The position numbers were made by a program, and so were the translations under genes. A stretch of DNA of 39,398 nucleotides, from IMG/VR virus record IMGVR_UViG_3300048583_000551, positions 1-39,398 of that record, one strand, 5' to 3'. Below, piece by piece: positions 14,277 through 35,649 of the stretch; position 1 is the stretch's first letter; each line of letters begins with the position of its first letter. The notes beneath the pieces are model-generated. The model was not told the DNA's origin. It worked only from the letters and a program-made list of their open reading frames with translations, and made no database searches. This DNA is from a virus.

Positions 14277-15722
14277 TTACCAGGTGATGCCGTCGATCCA
14301 GACCACGGAGTCGGGGCGCAGCAGCGACCAGCTCGTCGGGGCGATCATGCGGATGCCCACCGAGTAGGTCTGCCAGAACGAACGGGCCGTGTAGCCCGCC
14401 GAGGCCGCGCCAGCCGGATTGCCGGAGGCGTCGATGCCGCCGTTGCGCGGCACCTGGCCCGGCGTGCCGAGCGCACCCGCCAGCGTGTTGGCGTGGGTCG
14501 GCGCGCCAGCGCCAGCATCCGCCTCAACGATGGTGGCGACGTCGCTCACGTCGTACTCGGGCGCGTCGAAGCCAGCCGCGAACACCGCCGCATCCACCAT
14601 CACCAGACGGCCACGCGGCACGTTGGCGCTGGAGATCACCGGCAGGCCCAGCAGACGACCCGCCGCGAGCTCGGTGGCGAACACCGACTCGGACAGCGCG
14701 CTGGTGACCATGCTGGCGACCAGGCGGTCGACGTTGTTCATCATCAGCACCGGGCTGACGCTGGAGCGCGCCGAGGTCAGGGCCACCAGCAGCGCCTTCA
14801 CGTCGCCGCGGATCGCATCTTCGCCGCCGCCCGGAGTGGCCGGGAGCGCCGCCACGCCGTTCAGCAGGCCAGCCGGGCGGATGCCCGCAACCGCGGCGCC
14901 GTTGGAGAGCAGGGCGTTGTCCAGCACGGTGCTGTAGGAGTCGCGCAGGGCGGAGCGCAGGATGCCCTCGATGGCCGGGGTGGAACGCTCGGCGATCTCG
15001 CGGGTCATGCTGGTGATGGCGGCGAGCTTGTAGCGGTCGATGGTCGAGGCGCCGAAGCTGTACTGCGTGACCGGGATCACGCCGCCTTCGCCGACCCACG
15101 CCGGTTCGGTCTGGCCCGGACCCGGCTCATTGCGGCGCGGCACCTTCAGGCTGTTGTAGCCGCCGAAGGACAGGCGCAGCGAGCGCGAGGCGAGCGCGGC
15201 GGCGACGGAGGTTTCGGTGATGGCGTCCAGGAAGCCCCACAGACCTTCCTCCACGAGCTCCGCGGCCCAGCCGGGCGTGAAGGTGGTGGCAGGGTTGGTG
15301 CCGGCCTTGGTGATGTGCGCGATGGCCGCGGGGAGCGCCTTCTCGTTGGGGTAACGCTCGGCCAGGATCTCCTGGATCGACTTGCGCTGCACGTGGGACA
15401 GGAACGCGGCGGCGCCCATCTGCCAGAACAGGTTGTCGGCCTGGCCGGACTTGCTGCGCTGGGTGATGATGGAGGGGGCGCCGGTGCGGTCGTCGACGGT
15501 CTGCGCCGGGGCGGCGCGCGCGGCGAGTACGTTCTCGGCCTTCTTCAGCGCGTCGATGGAGGCGGTGGCCTTCTCGACCTGCGTGGTGAGCTGCTCGACT
15601 TCGTGCAGCAGGCTGTCCTCGTCCGGCGAGGCTTCGAGCGCCTTGGTGGCCGCGACCAGCGCGTCCTTGGTGCCGACGAGACCGTTCTCGGCCTCGATGA
15701 TGCGTTCTGCGAGCGTCTTCAT
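14277..15722 (-). CDS. Major capsid protein (HK97 fold)
   Basis: From ATG at 15722 (AAGGAAA at six bases) the protein has 481 residues; an upstream in-frame start would lie inside the protease gene. Residues 1-105 form a coiled coil rich in Glu, Ala and Leu, the delta scaffolding domain normally removed by the prohead protease. The mature part begins near residue 105-130. Typical HK97 capsid pieces are TPGWAAELVEEG, SFGGYNSLKVPRR, TSMTREIAERSTPAIEGILRS, the LMMNNVDRLVASM helix and LGLPVISSANVPRGRLVMVD. The C-terminus ends WSLLRPDSVVWIDGITW. The gene is flanked by the protease and a terminator. Confidence 0.92.
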   Translation of the reverse strand: MKTLAERIIEAENGLVGTKDALVAATKALEASPDEDSLLHEVEQLTTQVEKATASIDALKKAENVLAARAAPAQTVDDRTGAPSIITQRSKSGQADNLFWQMGAAAFLSHVQRKSIQEILAERYPNEKALPAAIAHITKAGTNPATTFTPGWAAELVEEGLWGFLDAITETSVAAALASRSLRLSFGGYNSLKVPRRNEPGPGQTEPAWVGEGGVIPVTQYSFGASTIDRYKLAAITSMTREIAERSTPAIEGILRSALRDSYSTVLDNALLSNGAAVAGIRPAGLLNGVAALPATPGGGEDAIRGDVKALLVALTSARSSVSPVLMMNNVDRLVASMVTSALSESVFATELAAGRLLGLPVISSANVPRGRLVMVDAAVFAAGFDAPEYDVSDVATIVEADAGAGAPTHANTLAGALGTPGQVPRNGGIDASGNPAGAASAGYTARSFWQTYSVGIRMIAPTSWSLLRPDSVVWIDGITW

Positions 15723-15732
15723 GGATTTTCCT

Positions 15733-16344
15733 TCAGCGAGAATGTAGGGCGGAACGCTTCGCCGCGATGATTGCGTGCTTGGCGCGGAGGATGACTTCGG
15801 CAGAACTGCCGGTGCGGCTACCGCCGTTGGACGTGGCGGCAAAGATCTGGTCCATCTCGGCGTCGTTCAGCCCGAAGGACTTGGCGACGGCCAGTGCCTG
15901 CGCATTGGCAGGCACGGAGACCAGCGAAGCCTCGAGCAGCTCGACCTCGTGGAAGATGCGGGCGTACGAACCCTTGATCGGCTCCGAACGCAGCGCCCGG
16001 AAGCCAACGCTCACGGCGCGGATGATGCCCTGCGCCAGCAGCGCGCGCGCCGTGTCAACGACGCGGCTGGTGCCCGCGGCAGCAAGGTTGAGCGTGCCCA
16101 GCAGGGCGCCGCGCTCGACGCGCACGTCCGTCCACACGCCGATGGGCGCGGTGTGGTCATGCTGGAAAAGTGCGACGGGATTCTGCTTGAAGGCGTCCAG
16201 CTGCCAGCCAGACGCCTTGACGATGTCGCCGGTGCGATCGGGCGCCTCCGTGGAAAGCACGAACTCGCGGGTGTCCGCGATACGCTGGCCTGCGCGCTTG
16301 ACGATCTGGTGCACGGCGGCGATCCCCTGTGGATTCAATTCCAC
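15733..16344 (-). CDS. Prohead protease (HK97 gp4 / S78 family)
   Basis: This 203-residue serine protease cleaves the capsid delta domain during head maturation. His62/His64 lie in FQHDHTAPIG and Ser112 in RAVSVGF, the two catalytic blocks of the family; ELLEASLVSVPANAQA (about 136-151) is the conserved third block. The early strand REFVLSTEAPDRTGDIV is also typical. The start is GTG at 16344 with AAGGA rather far (about 13 bases) upstream, so initiation may be weak. The capsid gene starts 10 bases after its stop. The last 30 residues are basic and Ser-rich. Confidence 0.92.
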   Translation of the reverse strand: MELNPQGIAAVHQIVKRAGQRIADTREFVLSTEAPDRTGDIVKASGWQLDAFKQNPVALFQHDHTAPIGVWTDVRVERGALLGTLNLAAAGTSRVVDTARALLAQGIIRAVSVGFRALRSEPIKGSYARIFHEVELLEASLVSVPANAQALAVAKSFGLNDAEMDQIFAATSNGGSRTGSSAEVILRAKHAIIAAKRSALHSR

Positions 16345-18332: not shown

Positions 18333-18844
18333 CCGAGGTCGTCCTCTGCATTGAGCAGGCGCCGCGTCTCCTCGATGTACACCTCGCTGGCCCGAGGCTT
18401 CGGGCCGGGCTTCTGCGGGGCGTGAAGCCGCAGGGCGCGTGAGTAGTTGAGGGCGGCGTTGATGAATTTGAAGTGGAGCTTCATGTGCGAGCAATCGGGA
18501 TCGTGCGGGTCGGCAAGGTCGCGCTCCGTCTCGGCGTCCTCGTAGGCCAGTGCTGCCAGCTCCAGCACATACAGATCTGCGCCGTTCCATTGGTCTGCAG
18601 GTCGCGCGGTCAGCAGGCGCCGGAATGCCTTGGCCGCGGATGCGCTCATGGTCGACGGCGGTTCGGGGTAGGTTGCCGCGGGCTGCGGCGCGTCAGCTGG
18701 GCCCGGCGCGTGGGTCGCGGCGGCGCCCGGCGCGGCGCCCGCGGCCAGCGCGCGGTCGGCGGCGGCGATTGCGGTCAGGCCTGCGTGGCGCGGGCCGTTG
18801 GAGATGTGGGCGGAAGAATGGTGGCTGGAGGCTGTCGCTGCCAT
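18329..18844 (-). CDS. Terminase small subunit (P27-like)
   Basis: From ATG at 18844 the protein has 171 residues; GTG at 18850 is also possible, and ATG at 18649 would omit the low-complexity N-terminus. Residues 1-65 are rich in Ala, Pro, His and Gly and look disordered. The rest is helical, with a segment KAFRRLLTARPADQWNGADL then LELAALAYEDAETERDL, followed by a region that resembles P27-type small terminases, which recognise the packaging site. It lies 33 bases or so after the predicted start of transcription and directly before the large subunit. The call depends mainly on that position. Confidence 0.65.
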   Translation of the reverse strand: MAATASSHHSSAHISNGPRHAGLTAIAAADRALAAGAAPGAAATHAPGPADAPQPAATYPEPPSTMSASAAKAFRRLLTARPADQWNGADLYVLELAALAYEDAETERDLADPHDPDCSHMKLHFKFINAALNYSRALRLHAPQKPGPKPRASEVYIEETRRLLNAEDDLG

Positions 18845-19069: not shown

Positions 19070-19138
19070 AAGCCCGACCCTGTAGGGGCGCATGGGGCGA
19101 TGGGCGAAATGGGCGCCTGCGTGGTCGCCCTGAAGGGC

Positions 19139-19384
19139 CGGGGCGGGGCGGGGCGGGCTGGGGCCGGGCTGGGGCGGCTGGGGCCGGGCTGGGGCGGCTG
19201 GGGCCGGGCTGGGGCGGCTGGGGCGGCTGGGGCCGGGCTGGGGCCGGGCTGGGGCCGGGCTGGGGCGGCTGGGGCCGGGCTGGGGCGGCTGGGGCCGGGC
19301 TGGGGCCGGGCTGGGGCCGGGCTGGGGCCGGGCTGGGGCCGGGCTGGGGCCGGGCTGGGGCCGGGCTGGGGCGGCTGGGGCTGA
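19139..19384. repeat. G-rich tandem repeat (GGGGCCGGGCT and GGGGCGGCT units)
   Basis: About 245 bp consist of roughly twenty units of two kinds, an 11-mer GGGGCCGGGCT and a 9-mer GGGGCGGCT, mixed irregularly with a run of the 11-mer near the end. Every unit has a G4 run and most a G3 run on the plus strand, so the single strand could form many G-quadruplexes. The mixture suggests expansion by slippage. It encodes no plausible protein. Its place just outside the terminase promoter allows a role in packaging-site recognition, replication pausing or recombination, none of which can be shown here. Confidence 0.9.
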
Positions 19385-19409
19385 ACCGGGGCGGCTTGAG
19401 GCCGCGGCA

Positions 19410-19651
19410 GGGCGACCGGCCCTAAAACCACGCCGCTGGGCCTAGGAGCCCACGGCGCCCCTACCCCTAGCAACCGTATGCCCTGTGCGTCGAAATGGGC
19501 AAATTGGCGAAAACCCACAAAAACGAGGCCTTTTTCACAACCCCAAAAATATTTTGCGAAAAGTGAAAAAAGTTGTTGCTTTTTGATTTCAGACCGTTCA
19601 TACTTCTCTTCGTGGGGACCGACCGGCCTCCGCCCAACCAAGGAAATGACC
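19410..19651 (+). repeat. Long promoter cassette, copy 1
   Basis: This roughly 240-bp block contains, in order, GGGCGACCGGCCC, the extended hairpin (19432-19456), a conserved tract around GGGCAAATTGGCGAAAACCC, an AT-rich stretch with AAAAATATTTT, a promoter and CAACCAAGGAA before the start codon. Copy 2 (20122-20361) is nearly identical and copy 3 (20987-21216) diverges in the AT-rich and promoter part. Each copy stands before a different small gene, so the block is a portable expression unit. Confidence 0.9.
19576..19604 (+). promoter_or_regulatory. Promoter P1, sigma70-like
   Basis: TTGCTT and CATACT are separated by 17 bp, with an A/T-rich tract (UP-like) directly upstream. It should drive the zinc-ribbon gene at 19652. 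Confidence 0.75.
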
Positions 19652-20104: not shown

Positions 20105-20121
20105 GCCGCGGGGCGAGGGCC

Positions 20122-20361
20122 GGGCGACCGGCCCTAAAACCACGCCGCTGGGCCTAGGAGCCCACGGCGCCCCTACCCCTAGCAACCGTATGCCCTGTGC
20201 GTCGAAATGGGCAAATTGGCGAAAACCCACAAAAACGAGGCCTTTTCACAACCCCAAAAATATTTTGCGAAAAGTGAAAAAAGTTGTTGCTTTTTGATTT
20301 CAGACCGTTCATACTTCTCTTCGTGGGGCCAGCCCGGCCTCACCCAACCAAGGAATTGACC
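20122..20361 (+). repeat. Long promoter cassette, copy 2
   Basis: This copy starts 17 bases after the stop of the zinc-ribbon gene and is nearly identical to copy 1 along its whole length (one T is missing in the GGCCTTTTT tract, plus a few changes near the ribosome site). The hairpin is at 20144-20168. It ends with CCAACCAAGGAATTGACC before the start codon. Confidence 0.9.
20287..20315 (+). promoter_or_regulatory. Promoter P2, sigma70-like
   Basis: TTGCTT, 17 bp, CATACT, in the same context as P1. It should drive the three small genes at 20362-20991. Confidence 0.75.
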
Positions 20362-20766: not shown

Positions 20767-20991
20767 ATGGCCACGACGCTCGCTGAGTTCAACGCCATCA
20801 TTCAGGCCGCGGGCCTTCCCTGTGAGCTGGTCAAGGGGAAGGGCTACCACTACTTCATCACCACGCCCGACCAGCCGTACCGCAGCAAAAGCCACTCCGT
20901 CTTCGCCTTCACCCACGTCAGCGTGAGGGACTGGGCGTACCTTGCGCGTGACTTCATCAACGAGGGCCGCGAGCCGGGCGAGCCCGCCTAA
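20767..20991 (+). CDS. Small protein of 74 residues, unknown
   Basis: The gene begins three bases after the previous stop with the same GAGCC spacing. The product, MATTLAEFNAIIQAAGLPCE onward, has an N-terminal helix, a strand region with KGKGYHYFITTPDQPYRSKS and a C-terminal helix ending RDFINEGREPGEPA. No catalytic motif is visible. It ends at the start of the third cassette, which suggests that the cassette hairpin terminates this three-gene unit. Confidence 0.7.
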   Translation: MATTLAEFNAIIQAAGLPCELVKGKGYHYFITTPDQPYRSKSHSVFAFTHVSVRDWAYLARDFINEGREPGEPA

Positions 20992-21216
20992 AACCACGCC
21001 GCTGGGCCTAGGAGCCCACGGCGCCCCTACCCCTGGCAACCGTATGCCCTGTGCGTCGAAATGGGCAAATTGGCGAAAACCCACAAAAACGAGGCCTTTT
21101 CTGCCAATCAAAAATATTTTGCGAAATCCGAAAATAATTGTTGACTTTCGTTTTGAACCGGCGCATACTTCTCTTCGTGGGGACCGACCGGCCTCCGCCC
21201 AACCAAGGAAATGACC
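20987..21216 (+). repeat. Long promoter cassette, copy 3
   Basis: The first 120 bp match copies 1 and 2 almost exactly and include the last codons of the upstream gene. The AT-rich part and the promoter differ (CAATCAAAAATATTTTGCGAA), but their order and the downstream AACCAAGGAA site are kept. The hairpin is at 20998-21022. Confidence 0.9.
21141..21169 (+). promoter_or_regulatory. Promoter P3, sigma70-like
   Basis: TTGACT and CATACT with a 17-bp spacer form the strongest -35 box of the three cassettes. It should drive the four genes at 21217-22600. Confidence 0.8.
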
Positions 21217-21510: not shown

Positions 21511-21552
21511 CCTGTTTCCCGACCTCACAAACCAACCTGTTTCCCGACCTCA
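21511..21552 (+). repeat. Paired leader repeats CCTGTTTCCCGACCTCA (21511 and 21536)
   Basis: Two identical 17-base units lie 25 bp apart between two genes, and the second runs into AAGGAA, the ribosome site of the next gene. The same unit occurs at 21864 and 21889 and seven times at 22764-22910. Confidence 0.9.
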
Positions 21553-21863: not shown

Positions 21864-21905
21864 CCTGTTTCCCAACCTCAGAAACCAACCTGTTTCCCGA
21901 CCTCA
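21864..21905 (+). repeat. Paired leader repeats, second pair (21864 and 21889)
   Basis: CCTGTTTCCCAACCTCA and CCTGTTTCCCGACCTCA lie 25 bp apart, as in the first pair, and the second leads into AAGGAATTGACC before a GTG start. The one-base change (G to A) is in the first unit only. Confidence 0.9.
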
Positions 21906-22231: not shown

Positions 22232-22600
22232 ATGAGCAAGAACGGCCCAAACAAGACCGTCGCCCGCGCGCGCAAGGCGATGGGCGGCTTCCCCGCGCAT
22301 GAGCCGCGCGCCCACTCGCCCTTCATGACTTGGTTCTTCGACCAGGTCCAGAACAAGGGGCGCCAGTTCACAAGCTTGGACGCGGCCGAGGCCGAGTTCA
22401 ATTCCGAGGCCGGGGCGGCGGTGCCGGCCCAAACCCTGACCGACCACGAAGCCGGGCGCCTGCGCGCAGGCGTCGCCGACATGGGCGGCCACAAGGTCAA
22501 AGCCTATGGCCGGGCGAGGGCGCTGTTCTTCTCCGGGCACGACCTGGACCGCGCCATCGCGACCGCGCGGGCCGAGCTGGGCTTCATGGACCCGGCCTGA
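22232..22600 (+). CDS. Protein of 122 residues, unknown
   Basis: The product begins with a basic segment (MSKNGPNKTVARARKAMGGF), then HSPFMTWFFDQVQNKG, and a helical remainder ending ATARAELGFMDPA. No motif is recognised. ACCTCAAGGAG, a degenerate form of the leader repeat, supplies the ribosome site. It is the last gene of the P3 unit; a copy of the TGGGC hairpin follows 30 bases after its stop. Confidence 0.7.
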   Translation: MSKNGPNKTVARARKAMGGFPAHEPRAHSPFMTWFFDQVQNKGRQFTSLDAAEAEFNSEAGAAVPAQTLTDHEAGRLRAGVADMGGHKVKAYGRARALFFSGHDLDRAIATARAELGFMDPA

Positions 22601-22763
22601 GCCGCGGCGCCGGGGCAACGCCCAAACCGCTGGGCCTAGGAGCCCACGTAGGGGCGAACCTGTAGGGTGGCCTAGGGTCTGGGGAGATATGGGCGCCTGC
22701 ACGCGCGGGCGAGGCCAGGATCCGGAACGAAAGCTGGGGAGCCGGGCCGCTTGGCCGCGGCAA
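22601..22763. other. Short non-coding stretch with hairpin copy
   Basis: The hairpin TGGGCCTAGGAGCCCA (22631-22646) probably ends the P3 transcript. A GGGCGCCTGCACGCGCGGGCG stretch is similar in part to the region at 19080-19140. No gene is seen. The space lies between two converging genes. Confidence 0.6.
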
Positions 22764-22910
22764 CCTGTTTCCCGACCTCAGGAACTTGTTTTCCGACCTC
22801 AGGAACTTGTTTTCCGACTTCACAAACCTGTTTCCCGACCTCAGGAATCTGTTTCCCGACCTCAGGAATCTGTTTCCCGACCTCAGGAACCTGTTTCCCG
22901 ACCTCAGGTC
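22764..22910. repeat. Seven-unit 21-bp direct repeat array
   Basis: Units start at 22764, 22785, 22806, 22827, 22848, 22869 and 22890, each exactly 21 bp. The consensus is CCTGTTTCCCGACCTCAGGAA, with a few substitutions, mostly in units 2 and 3. A 21-bp period places every unit on one face of the helix. The unit equals the leader repeat found before two genes, here without genes. The stop codon of the converging zinc-finger gene lies in the last unit. On the minus strand one frame would read EVGKQVP repeats, but no gene is supported. Confidence 0.95.
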
Positions 22911-23188
22911 GAGCTCTCTGCCTCCGTGCCGCCTGCCTTCGCCGCCGCAAACCATGGCGTTGTGGGCGCCGGGCCGAGTATGAATCCGTCGGGCCGCATG
23001 CGCCAGCCGCGTGCCTCCATCTCCGGCCACGTCAGGCAGCGCCGCGTGCCGCGCTCGTAGGGCTCGACGGCGTCGAAGGTTCCGACCCGGTGCTTGTCGA
23101 ACGTGCTCACGCGATTGAACAGGTGGCCGCAGGCGGTGCACTGGCATTGTGCGTCTCCGAACTTCGGCGTGCTTCGTTTCTCGTTCAT
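22904..23188 (-). CDS. FDxHR-type phage zinc-binding protein
   Basis: The 94-residue protein starts at ATG 23188 with AAGGAAGC upstream. Cys17-x2-Cys20 is followed by GHLF, then FDKHR (residues 30-34) and RRC (49-51) with a trailing PEMEARGWRM. This CxxC / F-D-x-H-R / Arg-Cys pattern is that of a small phage zinc-binding domain found in many phages near replication genes; its role is unknown, but nucleic-acid binding is likely. The C-terminal 25 residues are Ala/Gly-rich and look disordered, and the stop lies in the 21-bp array. Confidence 0.75.
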   Translation of the reverse strand: MNEKRSTPKFGDAQCQCTACGHLFNRVSTFDKHRVGTFDAVEPYERGTRRCLTWPEMEARGWRMRPDGFILGPAPTTPWFAAAKAGGTEAESST

Positions 23189-23750
23189 GTCTGCTTCCTT
23201 GTGGTTGCCGCAGGGTGGACTCGCTTGGACCCGAGATTTCACTTCGGGCCCGTGACTTCACTTTGGGCCCGTCATGGGCCCGTGATGCCGGCCCGTCACG
23301 GGCCCAGACTTTAGTCTCGATTTTATGTATCCGGGATGCTCTTGGGCCCGTGAGGCCCGTGATATTCCCCTCTCTACGCGGGAGAGATTCTCTTTTCAGA
23401 GAATCCTGAACGGAATTGGAAGGAAATTACCCTCCGCGGCCTCAATTACAACCCCATTTAGGAACAGAAAAGTGGTCGTACGGAAGCCCCTTTGAAAACG
23501 ATAGTAGATCACGGGCCCATGACGGGCCCGTTATGAATTTTGCACCACCTAACCTTATGATCCGCAAAAGAAAATCGCACGGGCCCGTGATGTTCGTTTC
23601 AGGCCCAATTAGACGCATAGCTATGCTGAAAGCCTCGTTTTACGACGCACGCCAATCCTCCCGCGGCCAGCCGCGAGCGCCCCGATTTTGGGGCGATTAC
23701 CTGTGGATTTCGGATCAGTATTTTCCATTTGAGGCACGCCGAATTCACAA
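23189..23750. other. Non-coding region with GGGCCCGTGA motifs, candidate replication origin
   Basis: No gene fits in these 562 bases. Between 23246 and 23590 the 10-mer GGGCCCGTGA and close variants occur about ten times in both orientations: 23246, 23265, 23276, 23296 (reverse), 23344, 23354 (partial), 23509 (reverse), 23520 (reverse), 23524 and 23581. The core GGGCCC is palindromic, and ACGGGCCCGT appears twice. A perfect 8-bp hairpin stands at 23386-23405. The segment 23406-23750 is notably richer in A and T than its surroundings. Repeated sites beside an AT-rich tract next to the helicase gene is how many phage and plasmid origins look; this is inference. Confidence 0.65.
23386..23405. 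repeat. Perfect hairpin in the candidate origin
   Basis: GATTCTCT and AGAGAATC pair perfectly around a TTTC loop. No T run follows on either strand, so it is less likely to be a simple terminator. It sits at the junction between the motif-rich and AT-rich halves of the region. Confidence 0.8.
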
Positions 23751-25238
23751 TCAATTATCGCCGGAGCGCATTTCAACCACCTCGCCCGACCCATCACGCG
23801 GCTCGACCGCAGCCCCAAACGCGATCGGCCTGCGCCAAAGCGCCTGCTCTACCAGCTTGCGGCGTGCGTCGGAGTTGCGCGGCGCCGAGCTGACGATATA
23901 GGCTGACCGTGACCGGAAGTCGTTGCGTTTCCAGCGCCCGTCGCCGGACGCGCTGTTGACGCGGTCGTAGCCGCGCTCGGCGAGCTTAAACGGGACGCTC
24001 TTGGACTTCAGCGCATCACGCGCCGCCGCCTCATTGTCGAACAGGCGCGACCAGCTGACGTAGGAGGTGAGGTCTGTGGAGAAGATCACGTCAGGCCGAA
24101 CGCCGCCACACGCCTCATCGATGAAGGCGTCCAGCACGTCATCCAGCACGTTGCGCCGCACCTCTTCAGCGCAGCCAATGACGGCCTCCTTGCCGAGCGT
24201 CATCGCAGGCGCCGCGGTGGGACTGAACGCCGACAGATCACGCGCGGCCAGCCATTGCACCGCGGCACCGCAGCCCCCGGCGCGCAGGTAGTCCCAGAAC
24301 GCTTCGTAGTAGGCCGCGGGACGTTTCCCGACGCTCGAGGTGAGCACGCAGAGCCTGCGATCTTCCGCGGGGATGTACATGGAGAGAGGGTCGTTGGTGG
24401 TGAGGATGACGCGGCAGAGATTGCGGATGTAGACGGTGTTCTCGTACTTTTTCGTCATCGCCAGCAGGTCGGGCGGCGCGGCGAGGACAGGCTTGAGCTT
24501 GTCGTAGAACGTGGACGCCTTATGTTCTGACGGGTCTGGGCGGACTTCGTTGATGACGAGGAGGAGCGACTTGGCATAGCCGTTGTAGCCGGTGAAGACC
24601 TCGTCTGGGCCGATTTCCGCGGCATTGAATTCACCGACACAGGCGCGGATCGGCGCGAGCAGGGAGTCTTTGCCGATGCCTTGGGCGCCCGCGAGCACGA
24701 GGCCGAAGTTGCACTTCTGGTACGGCCTCTGCACCAAGTGCGCGAAGAAGTCGAACGCGATCTCTGCTTCTTCCTCGTACAGCCAGCGCACGTGCTCGAC
24801 CCACCGATCAGCCGTCTGGCCATTCGCGGCCAGCGCGGCGCCCGGCCCCGGAACGTAGGTGTTGAGGCACACTGCACCTGGAACGTTCTGCATGCCCCGA
24901 TCCGTCATCACGAAGTCCCGCACGAACTGCGGCATCCCCGGCCACCACGTGGAGCCTTCCACCGTCCAGCCGGTTTCGACGTCGTTGATGGCATTCGAAG
25001 GTGGATAGGGAACGAGCTCGCCGCGCGAGTTTTCGCGGGTGGGCCAATCGTCCTTGCGGATCGCCCCATCAACTGACTTGGCGCAGAGCAGCATGCCCGT
25101 CTCGATGTCCCAGTAGGCCGCTTGCGCCTCGTCGTAGCGGAACGATGCCATCGTCCTGCGCCGCCGAAAGCTCATCGCGGCATCTTGGAGCTCCGCCTCG
25201 CGCTCAAGCTCCTCGTCCAGATTGCGCTGGTCACTCAT
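23751..25238 (-). CDS. Replicative helicase, D5/SF3-like (DUF5906-like)
   Basis: This 495-residue protein should unwind the phage origin or fork. The ATPase core has a Walker A GAQGIGKDS (184-192), Walker B LLLVINE (225-231) and an asparagine sensor in RVILTTND (Asn282), the order expected for SF3-like helicases of the D5/virulence-associated E group. Before the core, residues 90-180 contain TWWPGMPQFVRDFV and an EEEAEIAFDFFAHLVQRPYQK segment typical of this group. The C-terminal 110 residues (about 385-495) may be a winged-helix DNA-binding part. It overlaps the preceding zinc gene by eight bases, so primase and helicase are made together. The candidate origin lies directly after its stop. 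Confidence 0.82.
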   Translation of the reverse strand: MSDQRNLDEELEREAELQDAAMSFRRRRTMASFRYDEAQAAYWDIETGMLLCAKSVDGAIRKDDWPTRENSRGELVPYPPSNAINDVETGWTVEGSTWWPGMPQFVRDFVMTDRGMQNVPGAVCLNTYVPGPGAALAANGQTADRWVEHVRWLYEEEAEIAFDFFAHLVQRPYQKCNFGLVLAGAQGIGKDSLLAPIRACVGEFNAAEIGPDEVFTGYNGYAKSLLLVINEVRPDPSEHKASTFYDKLKPVLAAPPDLLAMTKKYENTVYIRNLCRVILTTNDPLSMYIPAEDRRLCVLTSSVGKRPAAYYEAFWDYLRAGGCGAAVQWLAARDLSAFSPTAAPAMTLGKEAVIGCAEEVRRNVLDDVLDAFIDEACGGVRPDVIFSTDLTSYVSWSRLFDNEAAARDALKSKSVPFKLAERGYDRVNSASGDGRWKRNDFRSRSAYIVSSAPRNSDARRKLVEQALWRRPIAFGAAVEPRDGSGEVVEMRSGDN

Positions 25239-25602
25239 CGTCGCGGCTCCGGCTCATGAGCAGCGCGAGGATCGCGAGCTCGTGGTAGTCGCGAGCCCTG
25301 CAATCTTCGTGCGAGCAGGTGAACTGCCCGAAGAACGAGTTCTCCTCGTCCGGGAGCCGCAGCGCAGCGCGGTGGTGTCCGGGGGAAAGCTTCTCCCAAG
25401 GGCAGCCAATCTCGAGCCAGCCGCGGCTGTCGTGTTCCGTTTGGGGCGCGACGCCGCAGGCTCGCAAGGTGGCGCGAACAGCGCTGAACGCGCGAAGGCG
25501 CTCTCCGCACGGCTGGGCAGGGTGGTTTGCGGAGAGATTGTAGCGTTGGGCGCGTACCACTCGGCGCGCGTGCGCCTGGAGAGCCTCGAGATTCTCATTC
25601 AT
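25231..25602 (-). CDS. Zinc-binding module related to the primase C-terminus
   Basis: The 123-residue product has an N-terminal helical part and a zinc-binding pattern Cys67, His76/77, Cys96 and Cys101 (GCPWEKLSPGHH, then FTCSHEDC). The same pattern closes the adjacent primase (KCPWTDAHTGG with FRCHHGAC). It may work as a separate zinc subunit of the primase, for template recognition, or as an accessory for the helicase. The ATG overlaps the primase stop (ATGA) and its end overlaps the helicase start by eight bases. Function is inferred from motif and linkage. Confidence 0.6.
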   Translation of the reverse strand: MNENLEALQAHARRVVRAQRYNLSANHPAQPCGERLRAFSAVRATLRACGVAPQTEHDSRGWLEIGCPWEKLSPGHHRAALRLPDEENSFFGQFTCSHEDCRARDYHELAILALLMSRSRDDE

Positions 25603-26573
25603 CGCATCTTCCTCAAGCTTGGGTGGGCCTCTGGCGCGGCAGCATTCACCGCCTCCAGCACGAATTCGCTCTCATCGGACAGCCACTGCGTCAGGTCGCG
25701 CCACCGGCGATGGTGACAGGCGCCGTGGTGGCAGCGGAAGGCGCCTGTCCAGCCGTTCTCTGGGTCGGGTGTGCGGATTGCCGCGCCATTGTCCACGCCG
25801 CCTGTGTGGGCGTCGGTCCAAGGGCACTTCATGTCCATCCAGCCTCCCATGTTCGGTTCGTCCCGACGCATCATGCCCGACGCGCGCAGCAGCGCCGTCG
25901 CCGCCACGAACGCGCGCACATTGTCTGCTCGGTTCCCGACCGCGACACGATCTGGCCGCGGCCCGGCCACGCGCAGCTCCAGCCGGAAGGCTTCGGCCAG
26001 TTGTTCGACGGTGTAGCGGTTGTGCGGTTCCCACGACTCGAGCCGGACGCGCCAGCCATTGTTGGCAGGCTTGCCGTTAACGCCTGCGGGGAGACGGAAC
26101 ACGCGGTTGACGCCTGCCATGCCGGTGTCTTTGCCGAGGAACTTGGCATGGATGAAGGCGTTGATGAGGGACTCGAATTTGCGCTGATCGCGTTCGAGCT
26201 CCTTGAAGAAGTAGACCGCCTGGAAATTGCCGGGCGAGGTTTCGATCAGTGCTGTGGGCCGGGCCGCGTCCAGCATTGACAGGGGGAACTTGGCCGCGGC
26301 TCCATCGCCGAGGTCATCGATCATCAGCAGCAGTCCGCCACAGAAGTTCTCTTTCCTGCGGCGAAACTCGCCGCGGTTGTTCGGTTGCATCGCGCTGACG
26401 CAGACATAGACGTTTGCCGCCTGATCTATCTGCCACAGCTCTTTCAGTACACTTGCCTTCCACTTTCCGGGGATGTCCGCATGCGGGTCGCCGCGGAACT
26501 GACACATCATCACCCGTCCTTCCCGAGGGAGCATCGCATGCATCCCCTCAACGAATTCCGCCAACGTCCCCAT
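25599..26573 (-). CDS. AEP-type DNA primase (RepB-like)
   Basis: The protein has 324 residues from ATG at 26573, chosen because AAGGAG lies nine bases upstream; an ATG seven codons earlier would place that site inside the gene. It shows the primase-polymerase pattern of archaeo-eukaryotic-type primases: a metal-binding Asp pair in LLLMIDDLG (Asp86/Asp87), ETSPGNFQAVYFF (about 111-123) and the later NRVFRLPAGVNGKP (156-169). A C-terminal zinc module follows with Cys250, His257, Cys281, His283 and Cys286. It should lay primers for the phage polymerase. It heads the overlapping primase, zinc module and helicase block, which starts after a 65-base gap. Confidence 0.78.
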   Translation of the reverse strand: MGTLAEFVEGMHAMLPREGRVMMCQFRGDPHADIPGKWKASVLKELWQIDQAANVYVCVSAMQPNNRGEFRRRKENFCGGLLLMIDDLGDGAAAKFPLSMLDAARPTALIETSPGNFQAVYFFKELERDQRKFESLINAFIHAKFLGKDTGMAGVNRVFRLPAGVNGKPANNGWRVRLESWEPHNRYTVEQLAEAFRLELRVAGPRPDRVAVGNRADNVRAFVAATALLRASGMMRRDEPNMGGWMDMKCPWTDAHTGGVDNGAAIRTPDPENGWTGAFRCHHGACHHRRWRDLTQWLSDESEFVLEAVNAAAPEAHPSLRKMR

Positions 26574-26638
26574 AGGACGCCTCTCCTTAGTCATCCGCGC
26601 CGGTAGCAGACATTCCCCGGTCTGCCAGCGGGAGACCG

Positions 26639-28865: not shown

Positions 28866-29077
28866 AGCTGCACCCGTTCCCGTTCCGCGCCGTCGCCCGC
28901 CGCGGCGACTCCCTGCTCCTTGACGTGGCGTTGCGCAACAAGGTCGCGCTGCTGGCGGAGACCGCGGAAGGCGCGCAGCTGCGCGCGGCGCTGTCGGAGG
29001 CTTTGGGCGGCGACTGGACGTTCACAGGCGACTGCGGCTCGATGGTGCGCGCCGATCTTTCCGTTCATAACGCTTGA
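28853..29077 (+). CDS. Small protein of 74 residues ending in LSVHNA
   Basis: ATG at 28853 with AAGGAGG upstream gives MLGLKLHPFPFRAVARRGDS and a compact beta-alpha fold with LLLDVALRNKVALLAETAEG. No family is recognised. Its last six codons (LSVHNA) and stop lie in the 20-bp element that also positions the -35 box of promoter P5, so the stop codon TGA is part of TTGACT. The gene at 29983 ends in exactly the same way. Confidence 0.7.
   Translation: MLGLKLHPFPFRAVARRGDSLLLDVALRNKVALLAETAEGAQLRAALSEALGGDWTFTGDCGSMVRADLSVHNA
29057..29076 (+). repeat. Element CTTTCCGTTCATAACGCTTG, copy 1
   Basis: This 20-bp sequence is repeated without change at 30247-30266 and 31471-31490, each time ending in the first three bases of a -35 box. 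In copies 1 and 2 it also encodes the C-terminus of the upstream protein. Confidence 0.95.
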
Positions 29078-29102
29078 CTCCTGCGCCAACATCAGCGATA
29101 AT
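29074..29102 (+). promoter_or_regulatory. Promoter P5, sigma70-like
   Basis: TTGACT, 17 bp, GATAAT, close to consensus. The leader TCGTCAAGTCAACCGACCTGACC after it is shared with P6. Confidence 0.88.
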
Positions 29103-29146
29103 AGTCTCGTCAAGTCAACCGACCTGACCCAACCAAGGAACCAACC

Positions 29147-29983: not shown

Positions 29984-30267
29984 TGGAGCTCGAACTTCGC
30001 TTCTGCCTCAAGACCAATCCCGGCGACGTCGTCGAGGACTTCCCCGAAGCCGCGCGCCGGGCCGCGGCCACGCTGCGCGGCGCCCTGCGCGCGTACCACG
30101 AGGCCTACAGCCGCACGCGGCAGACGCTGGCCGGAACCGAAGAAGACCTCGGGCCTCCGGAGCTGTACGGCAGGAATACGCCGCACGCCAGAGCCTACCA
30201 GCTGGGCGTGAAGGACGCCATCCGCGACCACCGCAAGAAGAACGAACTTTCCGTTCATAACGCTTGA
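29983..30267 (+). CDS. Protein of 94 residues ending in LSVHNA
   Basis: ATG at 29983 overlaps the previous stop, giving MELELRFCLKTNPGDVVEDF, a helical middle (EAARRAAATLRGALRAYHEA) and a basic end RDHRKKNE-LSVHNA. Longer frames from 29863 lie in the preceding gene. No family is recognised. The last codons are the 20-bp promoter element, as for the gene ending at 29077, so the two C-termini are the same because they are regulatory DNA. Confidence 0.68.
   Translation: MELELRFCLKTNPGDVVEDFPEAARRAAATLRGALRAYHEAYSRTRQTLAGTEEDLGPPELYGRNTPHARAYQLGVKDAIRDHRKKNELSVHNA
30247..30266 (+). repeat. Element CTTTCCGTTCATAACGCTTG, copy 2
   Basis: Identical to the copy at 29057-29076. The similarity to the P5 region continues through promoter P6 and the leader to about 30330, an 85-bp duplication in total. 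Confidence 0.95.
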
Positions 30268-30292
30268 TCTCTGCTCCCGCATCAGCGATAAT
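30264..30292 (+). promoter_or_regulatory. Promoter P6, sigma70-like
   Basis: TTGATC, 17 bp, GATAAT. It should drive the overlapping genes from 30338 to 31469. Confidence 0.85.
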
Positions 30293-30337
30293 AGCTTCGT
30301 CAAGTCAACCGACCTGACCCCAACCAAGGAATCTCAA

Positions 30338-31314: not shown

Positions 31315-31469
31315 CCATCTTCCAGACGCAGATGCTGGCGATGTTCCTCGTAGGCTTCGCCTGCGGCTTCTTGTTCCTGTACGTGATCGCGCACCTTGAG
31401 GCGCTGGACGCGCGGCGGCGCCGCGCGGCTCAGGACGACGAGCCGCCGCAGAAGGGATTCGGCCTGTAG
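31311..31469 (+). CDS. Small membrane protein of 52 residues
   Basis: GTG at 31311 overlaps the previous stop (GTGA). After VTIFQTQML comes one hydrophobic helix (AMFLVGFACGFLFLYVIAHL) and a charged tail LEALDARRRRAAQDDEPPQK. One transmembrane segment with a cytoplasmic acidic/basic tail is expected. An ATG at 31332 would give a shorter form. It ends the P6 unit two bases before the third 20-bp element. Confidence 0.55.
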   Translation: MTIFQTQMLAMFLVGFACGFLFLYVIAHLEALDARRRRAAQDDEPPQKGFGL

Positions 31470-31470
31470 A

Positions 31471-31490
31471 CTTTCCGTTCATAACGCTTG
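31471..31490 (+). repeat. Element CTTTCCGTTCATAACGCTTG, copy 3
   Basis: Same 20 bp as at 29057 and 30247. Here the upstream gene stops before it, so this copy is non-coding, which indicates that the element itself and not the LSVHNA peptide is conserved. Confidence 0.95.
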
Positions 31491-31516
31491 CTTTCCGTTC
31501 CGAATGCGCCCATACT
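31488..31516 (+). promoter_or_regulatory. Promoter P7, sigma70-like
   Basis: TTGCTT, 17 bp, CATACT. It should drive the large unit from 31551 through the polymerase, since no other promoter is seen to the right. Confidence 0.82.
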
Positions 31517-31550
31517 TGCCCTGTCCCCTCAACCGACCAAGGATCCTACC

Positions 31551-34313: not shown

Positions 34314-35113
34314 AAATCCCTCCTCCGCCTCTCAAGCGCATGCCCATTGCCATCTTCGACCTGGACGGCACCCTCTGCGATGATCGCCGCCGCAGGCCGC
34401 TGCTCCCGGCAGTGCACGGCCCGGACGCCGACTATGATGCCTACCACGCAGGTTGTGCCTACGACCCGGTTGTCGAAGACATGCGGCAAGCGGTGTTCGA
34501 CCACCGCGACATGGGCCACCGCATCCTCTTCATCACCGCCCGGCCTTGCACCTACATGGACGAGACGGTCGCGTGGATCGACACCTACGTGGGGCGCCTT
34601 TCGAACTTCTGCTTGCTGATGCGCCCGGAAGGTGACCACACGCCCTCTCCGGCACTGAAGGTGCGGTTGTTCGAGGAGGACTTCGAATGGAAGGATGTCG
34701 TCGCGGCCTACGACGATCGCGAGGATGTGCTCCGCGCGTTCCAGGCCAAAGGCGTCTCGACCGAAAACCTCACGCTGGTCGAGGTGCTGACCGACGCCGC
34801 CGTCGAGGAGGAAGAGGAAGAAGGCCCGTCACCTGCGGACTGCCTGATCGAAGGCGTGGCGCTGTTCGACAGCCGCAACACCCAGTACCGCGCGGCTTAC
34901 CTCAAGTTCGGCGACGTCATGCATGCGCTCTACCCTGACGGGATCAGCGCGCAGGGACCGGAGCAGATGGCGGAGCTTGGGCTGCTGGTGCAGATCGTCA
35001 GCAAGGTCACGCGCAACTCCGGCGCCCCCGCGGGCGAGATGCACCTTGACTCGATCGCTGATCTGAAAGTTTACGCGGCGATGCTGGAATCGGTGCTGAA
35101 GACGCCGCGATGA
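34310..35113 (+). CDS. HAD phosphatase domain fused to a DUF6378-like domain
   Basis: The protein has 267 residues from GTG at 34310 (GTGA overlap); ATG at 34340 is an alternative that starts just before the HAD motif. Residues 10-140 form a HAD phosphatase of the type in polynucleotide 3'-phosphatases: IFDLDGTL (Asp17, Asp19), ITARP (Thr76) and an AAYDDRED motif (Asp135/Asp136). An acidic linker (EEEEEEGPS) follows. Residues about 185-267 (DSRNTQYRAAYLKFGDVMHA through HLDSIADLKVYAAMLESVL) resemble the DUF6378 helical domain common in phages. Nucleotide or DNA-end dephosphorylation is likely; the second domain's role is unknown. Confidence 0.75.
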   Translation: MKIPPPPLKRMPIAIFDLDGTLCDDRRRRPLLPAVHGPDADYDAYHAGCAYDPVVEDMRQAVFDHRDMGHRILFITARPCTYMDETVAWIDTYVGRLSNFCLLMRPEGDHTPSPALKVRLFEEDFEWKDVVAAYDDREDVLRAFQAKGVSTENLTLVEVLTDAAVEEEEEEGPSPADCLIEGVALFDSRNTQYRAAYLKFGDVMHALYPDGISAQGPEQMAELGLLVQIVSKVTRNSGAPAGEMHLDSIADLKVYAAMLESVLKTPR

Positions 35114-35649
35114 TCGTCGCAGTCTTCGACGTGGAGACTACGGGCCTTCCGTTCCATGCGGAGGCCAAGGACGCCGTGCAGCCGCGCATCATTGAGTTCG
35201 GCGGCGTCCTCTGGGACGCCCGCCGTGACGAGATCATCGCCGAGCTGGAGCTGCTGGTCAATCCTGGACAGCCTCTTGAGGCCGTCATCACCAAGATCAC
35301 CGGCCTCACCGACGACCACCTGAAGGACGCTCCGCGGTTCCCCGACGTAGAGCCGCGGCTCCGCGAGTTCTTCGTGCGCGCGGAAGGCGTCGTCGCGCAC
35401 AACTTGCCGTTCGACCGCACGCTGATGTTCATGGAGCTGCTGCGCATGGGCATTCCGCCGAGCGCGTGGGTATGGCCGAAGCGCGAGCTGTGCACCGTGC
35501 AGGAGCATGCCGAGGAATGGGGGCGCCGCCCGAAGTTGCTGGAGCTCTACGAGTACTACATGGAGAGGCCGCTGGCCCAGAAGCACCGCGCGCTGGACGA
35601 CGTCAAGGCGCTTCTGGAAGTCGTGCGCGCATCGGGAGTTTTCTTGTGA
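35110..35649 (+). CDS. DnaQ-like 3'-5' exonuclease (proofreading)
   Basis: The 179-residue protein carries all DEDDh exonuclease motifs: FDVETTG (Asp7, Glu9), a middle Asp in HNLPFD (Asp102), and KHRALDD with His159 and Asp163. It corresponds to the epsilon subunit of DNA polymerase III and lies two genes before an alpha-type polymerase, so it is probably its proofreader. The RNase-type fold ends with a short helix and there is no C-terminal alpha-binding extension like that of the E. coli protein. ATG overlaps the HAD stop (ATGA) and the stop overlaps the next start. Confidence 0.92.
   Translation: MIVAVFDVETTGLPFHAEAKDAVQPRIIEFGGVLWDARRDEIIAELELLVNPGQPLEAVITKITGLTDDHLKDAPRFPDVEPRLREFFVRAEGVVAHNLPFDRTLMFMELLRMGIPPSAWVWPKRELCTVQEHAEEWGRRPKLLELYEYYMERPLAQKHRALDDVKALLEVVRASGVFL

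Follow-up and report, generated by a model that had tools for sequence, protein, structure and literature searches.

An iteron cluster directly downstream of a DUF5906 helicase gene is a probable replication origin in an uncultivated tailed phage

The non-coding gap at positions 23189-23750 of the uncultivated virus contig analysed here (the window is the whole 39,398-base record) is very likely the iteron replication origin of this phage, which would be opened by the C-terminal winged-helix-like domain of the neighbouring helicase and primed by the phage primase. Support for this reading comes from an iteron cluster that greatly exceeds chance expectation and is confined to the gap, from an adjacent D5/SF3-type helicase and RepB-type primase in the same gene run, from DUF5906 genes of unrelated elements that carry private iterons directly downstream in facing clusters, and from the same position and layout published for SaPI/PICI origins (PMC6092414, PMC7581432). 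Counting against it are a GC skew turn elsewhere, a modest AT-richness, and DUF5906 loci of which about half are without significant downstream repeats. A sequence-only reading of this DNA had proposed a replication origin of initiator sites beside an unwinding tract, a proposal that now appears largely right and to which comparative evidence is added here.

The record encodes a tape measure protein, a major tail protein, a portal of the HK97 type, a major head protein and a large terminase, and is thus a contig with tailed-phage genes. The minus strand carries, in order, Pam3-like genes, the primase, a short ORF, the helicase, the 562-bp gap and a small Zn-binding-like gene, so that the gap lies directly 3' of the helicase gene and downstream of the primase gene, which are separate genes:

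25599-26594, minus strand: RepB-type DNA primase (PF16793, E 4.9e-15; phrog_4861, E 2e-33)
25231-25602, minus strand: 123-aa ORF lying between the primase and helicase genes; no family match
23751-25238, minus strand: DUF5906 (D5/SF3-type) helicase of 495 aa, proposed as the initiator (PF19263, E 2e-8)
23189-23750: non-coding gap with the proposed origin, between helicase stop and Zn-protein start, with no codon-position signal
22904-23188, minus strand: small Zn-binding-like protein gene, its start at the origin edge (phrog_7707, E 7e-7; Phage_zn_bind_3 just under the cut-off)

Among the ORFs tested, no replicative DNA polymerase was recognised, the sole find being an exonuclease-subunit-like gene at 35110-35649. 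In SCCmec operons, small accessory replication proteins are encoded at the position that the 123-aa ORF takes here. Elsewhere in the record, the minus-strand ORFs 14277-15842 and 15733-16344 overlap and match consecutive parts of phrog_617 (protease 27-177, capsid 175-626), which suggests a split or frameshifted protease-capsid fusion.

Base composition marks the gap as non-coding, with GC by codon position of 0.54/0.57/0.52 against 0.64/0.48/0.82 in the helicase gene and hence no third-position signal; gap ORFs found no family match in PHROG, Rfam and tRNA searches returned no match, and no DnaA box (TTATNCACA) was present within one mismatch in 23189-23750. The sequence-only reading had called this the only long non-coding stretch beside the helicase; the gap is indeed non-coding and beside that gene, but the intergenic stretch at 22762-22908 is also repeat-bearing. 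What sets the gap apart is a cluster of iterons that begins 160 bp and ends 505 bp downstream of the helicase stop at 23751, with 11-bp spacing between some neighbouring units:

23246-23255, plus strand: iteron GGGCCCGTGA, exact
23265-23274, plus strand: iteron GGGCCCGTCA, 1 mismatch
23276-23285, plus strand: iteron GGGCCCGTGA, exact, 11 bp after the preceding iteron
23289-23298, plus strand: degenerate iteron CGGCCCGTCA, 2 mismatches
23296-23305, minus strand: iteron GGGCCCGTGA, exact, reverse
23344-23353, plus strand: iteron GGGCCCGTGA, exact
23353-23362, plus strand: iteron AGGCCCGTGA, 1 mismatch
23509-23518, minus strand: iteron GGGCCCGTGA, exact, reverse
23520-23533: iteron pair around the palindrome ACGGGCCCGT, GGGCCCGTCA reverse and GGGCCCGTTA forward
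23577-23590: palindromic iteron gCACGGGCCCGTGa, one arm of which is an exact GGGCCCGTGA

The six exact copies of GGGCCCGTGA lie on both strands, as had been claimed, and all fall within 23246-23590; a similar density of the motif in the rest of the genome had been named as evidence against an origin, and the exact motif is absent from the remainder of the 39.4-kb record. Allowing one mismatch, there are 13 strand-specific matches in the region (palindromic sites counted twice) and a single match outside it, GGGCGCGTGA at 18433. The shorter core GGCCCGT/ACGGGCC occurs at 12 sites in the gap, which makes the earlier count of about ten motifs a fair one, against at most 2 in any other 562-bp interval of the record and a mean of 0.13 (maximum 2) in 2000 shuffles of the gap. 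The palindromic motif noted twice is ACGGGCCCGT, at 23522-23531 and 23579-23588. The hexamer GGGCCC is found 9 times in the whole record, 8 of them in 23189-23750, so that outside the gap 1 was observed against 12 expected from a Markov estimate and 49.5 from base composition. Since CCCGGG, CGGCCG and GCCGGC are likewise avoided, this scarcity outside the gap may be general palindrome avoidance; observed/expected counts of strongly avoided 6-bp palindromes over the whole record are 0/7.7 for ACCGGT, 1/24.8 for CCCGGG, 1/19.5 for AGCGCT, 6/47.3 for CGGCCG and 8/45.3 for GCCGGC.

Palindromic TCACGGGCCCGTGA-like sites would also suit a dimeric regulator, and a gene with a good ribosome-binding site starts at 23188, downstream of the array. 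An operator array, bound by a phage regulator (perhaps the Zn-binding protein) that controls the promoter of that gene and with no replication role, is nevertheless unlikely: a search of 22400-24200 for sigma-70-like promoters, the one promoter type covered, found none, a usual operator does not hold as many as twelve sites spread in facing clusters over 340 bp, and the position 3' of DUF5906 helicases is common to unrelated elements.

The iterons form two facing clusters, 23246-23362 and 23509-23590, around a centre of 46% GC, and the following features lie between and within them:

23265-23286, plus strand: left arm of a perfect 22-bp inverted repeat, containing two iterons
23508-23529, minus strand: right arm of the perfect 22-bp inverted repeat
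23386-23405: perfect 8-bp hairpin GATTCTCT-TTTC-AGAGAATC, centre 23395.5
23360-23510: AT-richer centre and candidate unwinding tract, with 46% GC over 150 bp (genome 65%)

The perfect hairpin described from sequence is thus present, and its centre falls within 1.5 bp of the inverted-repeat midpoint at 23397. Further stems occur at 23511-23531 and 23678-23695, and when folded as single-stranded DNA the gap is far more stable than its shuffles (z -5.5), for which the inverted repeats alone could account. The AT-rich half that had been described holds in a relative sense only, since the centre is AT-richer than the genome but only modestly so, and three intergenic repeats at 19.4-21.2 kb are more AT-rich. 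A GC-skew check had also been proposed, and there the profile gives an origin at 23189-23750 no support, as the skew turns near 19.5-20 kb and not at the gap.

These observations bear on whether the true origin could instead be one of the other repeat sets, with the GGGCCC cluster serving as an accessory or copy-control locus. The candidate nearest the gap is:

22762-22908: seven 21-bp tandem repeats (AACCTGTTTCCCGACCTCAGG) between convergent genes, a rival or accessory element

Its seven head-to-tail copies resemble plasmid iterons, and a search of other viral contigs did not return the repeat. The second candidate is an AT-rich intergenic repeat of about 225-260 bp in three copies (19406-19630, 20118-20341 and 20972-21195), which is the AT-richest DNA of the record and near which the GC skew turns. 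An origin at either place is quite unlikely, because neither set adjoins the helicase gene, the core TTTCCCGACCTCA of the 21-bp unit also precedes two small plus-strand genes (21515-21552 and 21868-21905) and the unit is therefore a dispersed repeat, and the AT-rich copies, which share CCAACCAAGGAAATGACCATGA, terminate close to the start codons of small genes on the plus strand and are probably repeated promoter/leader segments. Further repeats were noted at other places. A 78-bp element is present in three copies (29053-29130, 30243-30320 and 31467-31544), of which those at 29053 and 30243 contain TTGACT or TTGATC followed by GATAAT at about 17 bp; it resembles a sigma-70-type phage promoter, repeated on the plus strand. 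A dense 11-bp array of GGGCTGGGGCC at 19135-19381 adjoins the terminase end of the late genes.

Turning to the putative initiator, a PDB profile search with the helicase matched the C-terminal region of the NrS-1 phage primase (E 3e-40) and 7pds (E 6e-4), whose PDB title is PriRep1 with dsDNA. The AlphaFold model (mean pLDDT 74) aligned to the NrS-1 helicase (Z 23.3) and the SaPI5 primase-helicase (7ola/7om0, Z 17.5), and also to the pox D5 and papilloma E1 helicases. In the model, residues 384-438 at the C-terminus form a winged-helix-like domain of beta-alpha-alpha-alpha-beta-beta topology, with a pLDDT of 82-92 in a model of the C-terminal part. Searched alone against the PDB, this domain gave no match at E <= 0.001 and weak ones (E at least 0.14) to Fur/Zur, MecI, PadR, the Cdt1 C-terminal domain and ribosomal proteins; these matches being weak and partly unrelated, DNA binding by this domain is an inference. 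In the mechanism we propose, the DUF5906 helicase would read GGGCCCGTGA through the C-terminal domain, load onto the inverted iteron clusters as a pair of facing hexamers and melt the hairpin-bearing, AT-richer centre, after which the phage RepB-type primase would prime, perhaps at hairpins like its RSF1010 relative. Host polymerase would presumably extend the primers, and the gap would be used in this manner in vivo.

Whether iterons at this position are a wider property of DUF5906 genes was addressed by comparison with other loci. Single-protein searches with the helicase of this record returned no relative from viral or genome contigs, and relatives were therefore found by alignments, collected by protein similarity and blind to repeats. 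An 8-mer repeat statistic in 500-bp windows was too coarse, and shuffle tests were used instead. By these tests a significant iteron cluster follows the helicase stop in 12 of 23 close relatives (this record included) as compared with 6 of 346 control windows. A second sample, which shares about ten loci with the first, comprised PF19263 (DUF5906) genes from proteobacterial genomes picked without regard to repeats; here the first 300 bp after the stop were repeat-enriched at 26 of 54 loci against 23 of 480 controls in a repeated-7-mer-pair test (Fisher 2.8e-16), a somewhat liberal test, since about 5% of its controls score instead of 1%, with the excess still tenfold. A most-repeated-7-mer test on this sample gave 16/52 against 6/257 controls. 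About half of the sampled DUF5906 genes have no significant downstream repeats, including L244, L246 and L256, where facing repeats are nonetheless visible by eye. Several viral helicase relatives run straight into the next gene with no gap, and the distantly related fused primase-helicases of Vibrio phages and phiM5 are mostly without a downstream gap.

Many of the relatives carry short repeats in facing groups around a spacer directly after the helicase stop. In L195, the nearest helicase relative found (29.5% over 400 aa), GGGCAC twice and then GTGCCC twice follow straight after the stop, and L159 has three copies of TGTTAC facing three of GTAACA. Other loci carry GGTTAC (L169 and L187), GGTCCCAA (L170), GGTTCAA (L186), GGTCCGAA (L194), CCCTGAC (L199), GTTCCTA (L225, 12 copies) or TGTGAC (L205, 9 copies) at this position. 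The occurrence of GGTTAC in L169/L187 and TGTTAC in L159 was noted informally as possible iteron-helicase co-divergence. Dense arrays of 8-12 iterons stand behind DUF5906 genes of proteobacterial genomic elements in L225, L205, L251 and L199, and these are good candidates for experimental origin work. On the helicase tree the iteron-bearing loci cluster, but several gains or losses are required. Across these loci, the iteron sequence is private to each element and the position and facing-cluster layout are common to them. Distant blastn found no close DNA relatives in phage records, and no related phage with an identical iteron was found in the viral contigs searched, which counts against the origin reading. 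The densest same-motif clusters inspected in other viral contigs were rejected: those of L264, L351 and L359 lie in coding DNA of collagen-like tail genes, those of L013, L075 and L108 are GC-rich DNA, coding or intergenic, and L262 holds other repeats; a helicase relative is encoded at none of them.

Clusters of inverted palindromic sites may also serve as parS-like or recombinase sites, and the gap holds such a cluster. That it is a partition (centromere), recombination or packaging site and not an origin is highly unlikely, as the ORFs tested showed neither a partition gene nor an integrase, the gene for the large terminase lies some 4.7 kb from the gap, and the relatives tie such clusters to helicase genes. 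The origin reading places a layout published for SaPI/PICI in a tailed phage that carries virion genes of its own; the layout is also seen behind many DUF5906 helicases and in at least 2 further viral contigs with virion genes (L169 and L159, which carry portal, head or tail genes). We lean slightly towards the broader view that the PICI origin layout is general to DUF5906 replicons, including self-sufficient tailed phages, with private iterons read by the helicase C-terminus. If the C-terminal domain reads a private iteron, then helicase and iteron would co-diverge, and origins would become predictable from sequence across thousands of uncultivated phages. Confirmation would provide a simple rule for locating replication origins in uncultivated phages and islands, as well as a natural collection of matched helicase and iteron pairs with which to study how initiators choose their DNA. 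Our literature search found no paper linking DUF5906 to iterons, and one may exist elsewhere.

Known systems provide close precedents for this architecture. In SaPIs the origin directly follows rep and is recognised by the Rep C-terminal domain (PMC7581432, citing Ubeda 2007). Origins of Gram-negative PICIs always consist of an AT-rich region between two sets of iterons, placed immediately 3' of rep, a layout that according to the authors is shared by no other known bacterial replicon, within a pri-rep-ori segment that replicates a plasmid (PMC6092414). The phage resembles SaPI/PICI in its primase and initiator-helicase genes followed immediately 3' by the origin (PMC6092414), in its two iteron sets around an AT-rich region, albeit of modest AT-richness in the phage, and in an initiator helicase of D5/SF3 AAA+ type. 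It differs in its GC-rich palindromic iterons, its separate RepB-type primase and the hairpin at its symmetry centre. A PICI is a satellite packaged by the virion proteins of a helper phage, and the element was rejected as one because genes for terminase, portal, major head and tail proteins are present in the record itself.

In SCCmec, the C-terminal domain of Cch2 binds iterons that lie downstream of the gene encoding it, and the phage likewise has a small gene preceding a helicase gene with iterons directly downstream; only Cch2 has binding shown by experiment, three AAGTG iterons and a polymerase-type primase (PMC7581432). In pRN1 and the Bordetella phages BPP-1/BIP-1 a stem-loop lies directly downstream of the primase/SF3 helicase gene, as in the phage, and winged-helix recognition has been proposed; pRN1 is without iterons, whereas in the phage iterons dominate and the hairpin is short (PMC4234260).

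Phage P4 alpha is an SF3 helicase initiator that binds short repeats in its origin, as is proposed for the helicase described here. P4 has two separated repeat sites, ori and crr. In RSF1010 a third protein, RepC, binds the iterons, and its helicase belongs to a different family from that of the phage. P4 alpha fuses a Toprim-type primase to the helicase (PMC4234260), whereas the phage keeps primase and helicase separate, and in this respect it is RSF1010 that the phage resembles, with a separate helicase and RepB-type primase together with iterons and hairpins (PMC4234260).
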